34,329 nucleotides of DNA from contig CANRGF010000004.1 in assembly GCA_947630075.1 (NCBI GenBank), positions 1 through 34,329 on the forward strand. The letters run 5' to 3'. The DNA is from an uncultured Clostridia bacterium (GTDB taxonomy: Bacteria > Bacillota > Clostridia > Christensenellales > UBA1242). Made by a program: the position numbers and the translations under genes. Under the pieces are notes generated by a model. The model did not search any database. It saw nothing but the letters and a program-made list of their open reading frames with translations, and was not told the origin of the DNA. Shown here piece after piece: positions 30,234 through 32,769 of the stretch. Each line of letters begins with the position of its first letter. Position 1 is the first letter of the stretch.

Positions 30234-30266
30234 AAAAGCAAAGTTTAATCACAAATGGAGATTGGT

Positions 30267-31610
30267 ATGGAAGGTGTTTTAGATTATATTAAGAAAAACA
30301 AAATGATTAACCGTGGCGAGATAATCGGCGTGGCTTGCTCGGGCGGGCGAGATAGCATTGCTCTATTGCACTATCTCAACTCAATCAAAACTGAGCTGGA
30401 TTGTGAAGTGGTTGCGGTTACTGTTGACCACGGCATTCGCAAGAACAGTGCGGCAGATGTTGAATTTGTTATGCAGTTTTGCAAGGACAATAAAATTCGT
30501 GCCTATAAATTTAAGGGAGAAGCATTAAAGGTTGCCAAGGAAGAAAAATTATCGATAGAACAAGCTGCAAGAAAAGTTAGATATGGTGTGTTTGAAACCT
30601 TAATTAAAAAAGGCTTGGTGGATAAAATTGCACTCGCTCACCACATGTACGACCAAGCAGAAACAGTGCTTTTAAACATTGTGCGCGGGGCATCACTTGC
30701 CGGTGCGCGTGGCATGGAGCCTGTGCGTGATGGAATTTACATCCGCCCATTGTTAAACACTCCACGCGAAGAGATAATGTCGTATCTAGACGAGTTTGGT
30801 CTTGAATATGTGGAAGATGAAACGAATAAGGACAACACTTATTCTCGCAACTACATTCGCAATGTTGTTATGCCAACTCTGCGCCGCCAATTTAGGCAGG
30901 TGGATAGAAGCATCGTTAAGTTTGCAGAATTCTGCGCGAAAGATGACGATTTCATCAATAAGCAAATCAATCTTGGCACGGTGATAGACGGCAAAGATTA
31001 TGTGAAAGTTCCGCTATCTTATTTCTATCAAGATGAGGTGCTTGTAAATCGCATTTTGATGAAGGTGTTTAAGCGTTTTGCCCTTCAGGATATTGAAAGC
31101 AAACATATCAATATGGTGCGCGAATTTGCTTTGGAAGCAAATAATGGCAGCATTATCAACCTTCCTTTCAAATTGAAAGTTTGCAAGGAGTATGACTATA
31201 TAATAATCGGTGCAATAAAAAAGGTTGCAAGCCATGGAGAATATCAATTTAGGCACGGCAAACTAAAAATAGACGATTATGGTGTGATTCGTGCAACGGC
31301 AAGCAAGGTTAAAACCGAGCCAAAGCCACATCAGCACATCGTAGATTACGAAGCAATTCCAGAAGATGCAGTTTGGCGTTTTAGGCAGGAAGGGGACACA
31401 TTTGCGCCACTTGGCTTGAAGGGCAGCAAGAAATTGAAGGACTATTTTATTGATAAGAAAATCCCACAGCGCATGAGGGACACAATTCCTGTGTTGGCGG
31501 TTGGCAACAAAATTTTAATTATCGCAGATATTGAAATTAGCGATGAAGTGAAAGTTACGGATAAAACCACCCAATTCTTCAAAATCAACTACGAAAAAGA
31601 TTTAATTTAA
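30267..31610 (+). CDS. tilS: tRNA(Ile)-lysidine synthetase
   Basis: GVACSGGRDSIALLHYL PP-loop, VDHGIRKNSAADVEFV, HHMYDQAETVLLNIVRGASLAGARGM. SD ggag precedes ATG 30267. Confidence 0.95.
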   Translation: MEGVLDYIKKNKMINRGEIIGVACSGGRDSIALLHYLNSIKTELDCEVVAVTVDHGIRKNSAADVEFVMQFCKDNKIRAYKFKGEALKVAKEEKLSIEQAARKVRYGVFETLIKKGLVDKIALAHHMYDQAETVLLNIVRGASLAGARGMEPVRDGIYIRPLLNTPREEIMSYLDEFGLEYVEDETNKDNTYSRNYIRNVVMPTLRRQFRQVDRSIVKFAEFCAKDDDFINKQINLGTVIDGKDYVKVPLSYFYQDEVLVNRILMKVFKRFALQDIESKHINMVREFALEANNGSIINLPFKLKVCKEYDYIIIGAIKKVASHGEYQFRHGKLKIDDYGVIRATASKVKTEPKPHQHIVDYEAIPEDAVWRFRQEGDTFAPLGLKGSKKLKDYFIDKKIPQRMRDTIPVLAVGNKILIIADIEISDEVKVTDKTTQFFKINYEKDLI

Positions 31611-31630
31611 TAGGTTAGTAAAATAAAAAA

Positions 31631-31675
31631 TTGTCAGTAAATTTGCCAAAATCTATTGACAATTCTTTTTTTTTA
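31631..31675 (+). terminator. Rho-independent terminator of tilS overlapping the str promoter
   Basis: AATTGTCA...TGACAATT 8-bp stem followed by C and T9. Confidence 0.7.
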
Positions 31676-31684
31676 TAATAAAAT
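31656..31684 (+). promoter_or_regulatory. str operon promoter (TTGACA-17-TAAAAT)
   Basis: TTGACA 31656-31661, TAAAAT 31679-31684; same hexamers and spacing as the S10 promoter. Confidence 0.7.
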
Positions 31685-31720
31685 TAATTCGTTATAGTAC
31701 AAAATGCTGTTTGTAAATAA

Positions 31721-31815
31721 CGACCCCCACATTGTAGCGGTGGGGATTCGGCGCTTTGCCCTTAGCAAGTTTCACTTGCGGGCTGCGGCTCATAATTGAG
31801 TTTAGGGCAAGCGAA
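31721..31815 (+). promoter_or_regulatory. Structured 5' leader of rpsL (hairpin plus three-way junction)
   Basis: CCCCAC/GTGGGG hairpin (31725-31745); closing stem CGCTTtGCCCT (31752-31762)/AGGGCAAGCG (31804-31813) enclosing GCAAGT-TTC-ACTTGC and CTCA-TAAT-TGAG hairpins. Confidence 0.65.
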
Positions 31816-31847
31816 GTGATTTATTAACAAATTTTCAAGGAGGAAAA

Positions 31848-32219
31848 ATGCCTACAATTAATCAATTAGTTAAAAAAGGCAGAGTTAAGCAAACTCAAAA
31901 GAGCCAATCTATTCTTTTGGATAAGTGCCCTCAAAAGCGCGGTGTTTGTTTAACTGTTACCACCACCACACCTAAAAAGCCAAACTCGGCATTAAGAAAG
32001 ATTTGCCGTGTTCGCCTTTCAACAGGCAAGGAAACCACTTGCTATATCCCAGGCGAAGGCCACAATTTGCAAGAGCACAATGTTGTGTTGGTGCGTGGCG
32101 GTCGTGTGCCAGACCTTCCAGGTGTGCGTTATCATGTTGTGCGCGGTGCGTTGGATACTGCCGCTGTGCAAAAGCGCAAACAAGGTCGTTCTAAATATGG
32201 CGCAAAAAGGCCTAAATAA
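31848..32219 (+). CDS. rpsL: 30S ribosomal protein S12
   Basis: [57 protein letters not shown]. Confidence 0.98.
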
Positions 32220-32298: not shown

Positions 32299-32769
32299 AT
32301 GTCAAGAAGAAATCAGGCTGTCAAAAGAGAAGTGTTGCCAGACCCGCTTTATAATTCAGTTTTGGTCACTAAACTTGTAAATCAGGTGATGATGGACGGC
32401 AAAAAGGGCATTGCACAAACAATCGTTTATAGCGCAATGAAACTCGCTGGCGAGAAATTGAAAGATGAACCACTTAATATTTTAACAGCAGCTATTGAAA
32501 ATGTTAAGCCTAAGCTTGAAACTAAAGCTAGGCGCGTTGGCGGAGCAAACTATCAAGTTCCGCTAGAAGTGTCTGCCGATAGGCAGCAAACGCTCGCAAT
32601 TCGCTGGTTGGTTATGTTTGCCCGCAAGCGTAATGAGCGTGGCATGGAAAACAAACTTTCCGCAGAAATTGTGGACGCATTTAATCAAACAGGCGGCGCA
32701 ATTAAGCGTAGAGATGATATGCATAGGCAAGCAGAAGCAAACAAAGCGTTTGCTCACTTCCGCTTTTAA
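32299..32769 (+). CDS. rpsG: 30S ribosomal protein S7
   Basis: RRNQAVKREVLPDPLYNSVLVTKLVNQVMMDGKKGIAQTIVYSAM. Confidence 0.98.
   Translation: MSRRNQAVKREVLPDPLYNSVLVTKLVNQVMMDGKKGIAQTIVYSAMKLAGEKLKDEPLNILTAAIENVKPKLETKARRVGGANYQVPLEVSADRQQTLAIRWLVMFARKRNERGMENKLSAEIVDAFNQTGGAIKRRDDMHRQAEANKAFAHFRF

Follow-up and report, generated by a model that had tools for sequence, protein, structure and literature searches.

Does the rpsL-rpsG-fusA operon of an uncultured Clostridia bacterium possess a regulatory RNA in front of its first gene, and, if so, which part of the leader carries the conserved structure? The original prediction, made from the DNA letters, was that the rpsL leader folds into a hairpin plus a three-way junction and that this fold is a candidate str-operon regulatory RNA. 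We analyzed the window (the whole stretch of DNA studied, 34,329 nt) together with related genomes. The contig of the window is part of an assembly of about 1 Mb (88% complete) from an uncultured, Clostridia-like organism with a small genome. The features are listed in Table 1.

Table 1. Features of the rpsL locus in the window
Feature	Position	Strand	Basis
tilS, gene upstream of rpsL	30255-31610		
Promoter: -35 TTGACA, 17-nt spacer, -10 TAAAAT	31656-31684	+	11 of 12 consensus matches
P1, GUUAU..ACAAA-[AUGCUG]-UUUGU..AUAAC, invariant loop core UGCUG	31691-31721	+	conservation, genome-wide specificity
P2, CCCCAC-[AUUGUAGCG]-GUGGGG	31725-31745 (arms 31725-31730/31740-31745)	+	covariation, folding
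P3, three-way junction, variable domain	31752-31813	+	sequence and folding
P3 closing helix, CGCTTTGCCCT/AGGGCAAGCG	31752-31762/31804-31813		
P3 arm 1, GCAAGT-TTC-ACTTGC	31765-31779		
P3 arm 2, (GG)CTCA-TAAT-TGAG(TT)	31787-31802		
GUGAUUUAUUAAC, site of the GG(G)UUG motif of relatives, degenerate here	31816-31828	+	alignment
Shine-Dalgarno sequence of rpsL, AAGGAGG	31837-31843	+	sequence
rpsL (S12)	31848-32219	+	NCBIfam (TIGR00981 and TIGR01029 for rpsL and rpsG)
rpsG	32299-32769	+	NCBIfam (TIGR00981 and TIGR01029 for rpsL and rpsG)
fusA	from 32784, runs off the window	+	translation

Promoter and operon

As shown in Table 1, the leader heads the gene order rpsL-rpsG-fusA, so that the S7 gene is included in the operon. 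The third reading frame is one that we take to be fusA from its translation. A strong sigma-70 promoter precedes rpsL, and the arrangement TTGACA-17-TATAAT is kept ahead of rpsL throughout the genus. The predicted transcription start is at about 31690-31692. Therefore, P1 would be located at the extreme 5′ end of the RNA and the leader would be about 157 nt long (31691-31847). The fold had been described as not terminator-like, and indeed no terminator-like site was found within 31560-31900, that is, none between the promoter and the ATG of rpsL. The -35 box of the promoter is overlapped by an inverted repeat, AATTGTCA/TTGACAATT, followed by a T run (31629-31673), which is a possible terminator of tilS. 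The upstream arm of this repeat is not conserved.

For comparison, RpsL was recovered in 28 of the 34 genomes of the genus and the leaders of these 28 were used. The six genomes without any RpsL match (G002, G005, G011, G024, G025 and G026) include three that are at least 92% complete. In these genomes, either the contig is missing or rpsL is interrupted.

The 5′-terminal hairpin P1

P1, which was overlooked in the original prediction, shows the strongest conservation within the leader and is present in nearly all of the 28 leaders. In the genus, the promoter is generally followed by P1 (GUUAUAGUACAAA-AUGCUGC-UUUGUCUAUA) and, in some leaders, by a small hairpin; the motif GAGGUUGCA and the Shine-Dalgarno sequence come next. 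When genomes of the genus were searched with the P1 pattern, one copy per genome was found exclusively before rpsL in all 15 matching genomes, and the reversed pattern used as a control gave 0 matches in 15 genomes.

Genus members outside the subclade of the window have GGUUGCA, close to the Shine-Dalgarno sequence, as the pairing partner of the P1 loop. In nearly all leaders bearing this motif, 7-8 of 9 positions can pair with the P1 loop (L021 is lower). In a 16-sequence genus alignment, the proportions of paired cells were 90% for P1, 97.9% for the long-range helix and 95.8% for the small hairpin. Because most columns of this alignment are nearly constant, covariation is limited, and the changes in P1 are mostly one-sided. 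In the deep lineage of L025, L027 and L028, the loop is UGCUACC and the long-range pairing is preserved with other bases, including one change from U-A to A-U. In the window, the minimum free energy (MFE) structure of the full leader rearranges P1, and P1 is regained when 31691-31820 is folded.

P2 and a putative contact between the P1 and P2 loops

P2 takes the place of the small hairpin in the subclade of the window (the window, L004, L005, L016 and L017). The P2 loop is (U)UGUAGC[AG], in which GUAGC is constant in five distinct species. The stems are CCCCAC/GUGGGG, CCCUAU/AUAGGG, CCUCGC/GCGGGG and GGUCCAA/UUGGACC; thus, four of the six pairs are altered on both sides across the five species. 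The covariation score of P2 was matched by 1 of 500 shuffles and dropped once the partners were slid. Folding of single leaders predicted P2 in L002, L004, L005, L016 and L017. The combination of P1, P2 and a closed P3 was predicted in L004, L016 and L017, and that of P2 and P3 in the window.

In all members of the subclade, UAGCR in the P2 loop (UAGCG in the window) is complementary to UGCUG in the P1 loop. In this subclade, the P1 loop therefore seems to have switched its pairing partner to the P2 loop. Both loops are near-invariant, so covariation gives no proof here, and we infer the P1-P2 loop contact in the window. The P2 loop sequence CAUUGUAGC is also complementary to GCUACAAUG, presumably a conserved segment of 16S rRNA; we regard this as a lead only. 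A 16S rRNA gene was not found in the 88%-complete assembly.

The three-way junction is variable

The complementary segments proposed for the hairpin and the junction are present in the window, and MFE folding reproduced both elements. The second arm of P3 has two MFE alternatives depending on the segment folded, GGCUCA-UAAU-UGAGUU or GGGC-UGCG-GCUC. The description of the fold as highly stable was overstated: against dinucleotide shuffles, the z-scores were -1.3 to -1.8, and the p values were 0.11 (whole leader), 0.052 (hairpin) and 0.048 (junction). The fold does end shortly upstream of the Shine-Dalgarno sequence, at a distance of 23 nt rather than the proposed 30 nt or so.

Conservation in relatives, which had been proposed as the test of the structure, failed for the three-way junction: apart from the window, a single sister genome (G021) has it, and we rejected it as the conserved core of the leader. 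The two sequences are identical over the entire 750 nt preceding rpsL, a stretch that reaches into the end of tilS. Because the identity covers this entire region, G021 is uninformative on selection, and its identity was rejected as a signal of selection. At the position of P3, L004, L016 and L017 have unrelated closed hairpins, and L005 and most of the genus have none. Since P3 has no sequence relation between species, the junction is, as judged by alignment, the form that a variable insert takes in a single species.

The P3 domain of L004 is built of a TGTCATCCTGAGCGAAG-type repeat, which indicates that repeats can insert into the rpsL leader. The leader of L018 is rearranged. We also considered the junction of the window as a repeated or mobile element and rejected this idea: a second copy was not found in the 88%-complete assembly at E ≤ 0.001. 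Two off-target DNA matches in relatives (L041 and L042) were due to chance similarity of Shine-Dalgarno or AT-rich sequences.

A GGGUUG-loop hairpin upstream of rpsL in the order

To look beyond the genus, we took 100 leaders from the family's other genera and 20 from the order's other families. Directly ahead of rpsL, a short hairpin whose loop reads GGGUUG is present in 16 of the 20 leaders from other families and, under the same criterion, in 37 of the 100 from the family. In a distal upstream segment used as a control, the count was 0, and shuffles with a nearly identical criterion gave an expectation of 1.9 per 100. Pairs 4-7 of the stem, which were not forced in the search, show all pair types and high pairing. 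Since the stem ends were picked to maximize pairing, a fairer control is provided by the counts from shuffles and from the distal segment. The sequence UCAUCC, which could pair with the loop, follows the hairpin in 10 of 63 cases as compared with 0.2 expected. When 61 genomes of the order were scanned for the motif-plus-Shine-Dalgarno arrangement, it was found chiefly at rpsL. Among 24 leaders of the class from outside the order, no GGGUUG hairpin was found except for three U-tailed terminator hairpins. The hairpin is not in Rfam, and it is probably of greater interest than the junction of the window. In the rpsL upstream regions L252-L271 and L123-L251, it lies 20-57 nt before the start codon and its stem varies freely. 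Pairing of the loop with the first codons of rpsL (UCAACC) was considered and rejected, since the choice between AAC and AAT was not clearly different with or without the hairpin.

The corresponding site in close relatives of the window is GGGUUG (L004 and L017), GGGUUA (L005) or GGUUG (L016). The GGUUGCA of the genus, and the GGGUUG of L004 and L017, fit a derived form of the order-wide motif. In the leader of the window, neither a GGGUUG-loop hairpin 20-57 nt before the ATG of rpsL nor a G[GA]TT-type pairing partner was found. Thus, the species of the window appears to have lost the order-wide hairpin. The segment GGGCUGC (31780-31786) differs from GGGUUGC by one mismatch in seven, and this resemblance to a displaced copy is not significant.

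Comparison with known rpsL leaders

At the gathering threshold of Rfam 15, the window and the loci of 37 relatives gave 0 matches (best sub-threshold E value, 3.7). In E. coli, the S7 site that controls the str operon lies between rpsL and rpsG; the operon is the same here and an operon product is likewise the likely ligand, but the structured element is located in the 5′ leader. The original prediction had noted this different arrangement, correctly, although rpsL 5′ leaders have already been described elsewhere (PMC2965389, PMC2704228). By inspection, the rpsL-rpsG spacers of the genus (32-297 nt) contain no common structure corresponding to an E. coli-type S7 site.

Attenuators in rpsL leaders are known from Listeria, Xanthomonas, Pseudomonas and Rickettsia and are "multiform" between lineages (Naville & Gautheret 2010, PMC2965389). 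These are structured rpsL 5′ leaders, as here, but they end in intrinsic terminators with anti-terminators, and no intrinsic terminator of that kind was found within 31560-31900. The Pelagibacter rpsL motif, also a 5′ leader, consists of a bulged P1 stem leading into a three-stem junction and is represented by 659 unique sequences (Meyer et al. 2009, PMC2704228). Its junction is conserved, whereas the junction here is one species' variable domain; the conserved parts here are P1 and P2, and Rfam gave no match to such a family. Among 20 leaders of ribosomal protein operons, which like the present one are small and covarying, none is assigned to S7 or S12 and none lies upstream of rpsL in Clostridia (Eckert & Weinberg 2020, PMC7247131). 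Through P1 and P2, the present leader has what is generally expected of such elements, namely a structure found consistently and specifically upstream of a ribosomal protein gene. On these comparisons, it is an uncatalogued form of the known multiform rpsL leaders, not a new type of system.

Two observations concern the rpsL-rpsG spacer. The spacers of L004, L007, L016 and L018 have in common GAGGGACAAC...CCCTCAT, or a close variant of it, and then a CTCCTTTTCC-like sequence with complementarity to a Shine-Dalgarno sequence; this arrangement is missing from the 79-nt spacer of the window. Outside the genus, L030 and L045 share a conserved, apparently structured spacer of about 190 nt right before rpsG, with the segments GGAATATATT...TAAAAGTAGGCAGTATTCGC...GAGCAAGCGA..GCTTATTTAAGGTAATCCCTTAAA; this spacer is a possible S7 site.

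Discussion

We propose, with a confidence that stands midway between doubt and acceptance, that the leader is a lineage-specific, fast-evolving, cis-acting autoregulatory RNA of rpsL-rpsG-fusA, the P1/P2 region of which is bound by excess S7 or, as the second choice, S12. P1 would open the leader, and its loop would pair over a long range, its partner being the P2 loop in the subclade of the window and GGUUGCA right before the Shine-Dalgarno sequence in the remaining genus. The variable hairpin domain P3 could be inserted between P2 and the Shine-Dalgarno sequence. Binding of the excess operon product to the folded P1/P2 region would then lower translation initiation of rpsL. S7 is most likely the ligand because it is a primary 16S rRNA binder and regulates the same operon in E. 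coli (PMC10931766); S12 is possible. Because the leader has no terminator, translational control is likelier than attenuation. The restriction of P1 to rpsL, the covariation of P2, the pairing of the P1 loop with GGUUGCA and the order-wide hairpin argue for autoregulation, and the weakness of the window's own fold relative to shuffles argues against it. Since the GG(G)UUG of relatives is lost in the window, the mechanism may be altered there. Of the original idea of a str-operon regulatory RNA, the structured and rpsL-specific leader thus stands, on conservation, P2 covariation and P1 specificity; the junction as its core does not.

The main rival explanation involves no feedback: P1 and P2 would form a 5′-terminal cap that keeps 5′ exonuclease and RppH/RNase J from degrading the abundant str mRNA, and P3 would be a neutral insertion. 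Stem-loops at the 5′ end can stabilize mRNAs, and a plain stem-loop is enough for such a role. Two facts agree with this explanation: wherever a genus leader has the conserved promoter, P1 is located at the predicted +1, and P3 is freely replaced among relatives. However, the cap explains neither the restriction to rpsL, as the element is not reused on several abundant mRNAs, nor the conserved loops: UGCUG and UUGUAGC are kept as well as the stems, and a matching partner exists elsewhere in the leader. We therefore give the cap a minor share of the probability. A somewhat smaller share falls to a chance or neutral fold, in which the conserved parts mirror only promoter and start-site constraints. 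The z-scores near -1.5 and the fast change of the region are what such a fold predicts, but the P2 covariation, the conservation and uniqueness of P1 and the order-wide GGGUUG hairpin are not.

Two further explanations assign a function to P3 itself. In one of them, the leader would be a transcription attenuator of the type known for rpsL in Listeria, Pseudomonas, Xanthomonas and Rickettsia (PMC2965389), with P3 acting as the anti-terminator or terminator partner. Leaders of rpsL act in this way in those lineages, and some leaders of the family have UUGUAGCGGUUUUUU-like hairpins that carry a run of U residues. In the window, however, there is no terminator-like site from the promoter to the ATG, and the leaders of the genus, about 60-80 nt long, have no U-tailed hairpin. 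For the window, attenuation is already mostly refuted and we consider it very improbable. Least credible of all is the idea that the three-way junction binds a protein by mimicking the S7 junction of 16S rRNA. Complementarity and MFE folding back the junction as a structure, but no other species of the genus examined has it apart from the sister genome, whose identity over 750 nt is uninformative, and the stability of the junction reaches only p of about 0.05.

Beyond the genus, we tentatively suggest, while holding it to be improbable on balance, that the order-wide rpsL leader is an ancient, undescribed S7 (or S12) site. Its original form would be the GGGUUG hairpin beside the Shine-Dalgarno sequence, with or without a UCAUCC pseudoknot. 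The partner would have been re-wired to the loop of the 5′-terminal hairpin in the genus of the window and then to the P2 loop in the subclade, and the ancestral motif would have been lost in the species of the window. If this is true, a regulatory RNA has been caught swapping its parts. Control of the str operon beyond E. coli is poorly understood, and the published rpsL leaders have no common structure. Within this single order, the forms found before the same gene range from a conserved hairpin of simple design to several that are rearranged. This series lets one ask which part the regulator recognizes and how fast such sites are replaced.
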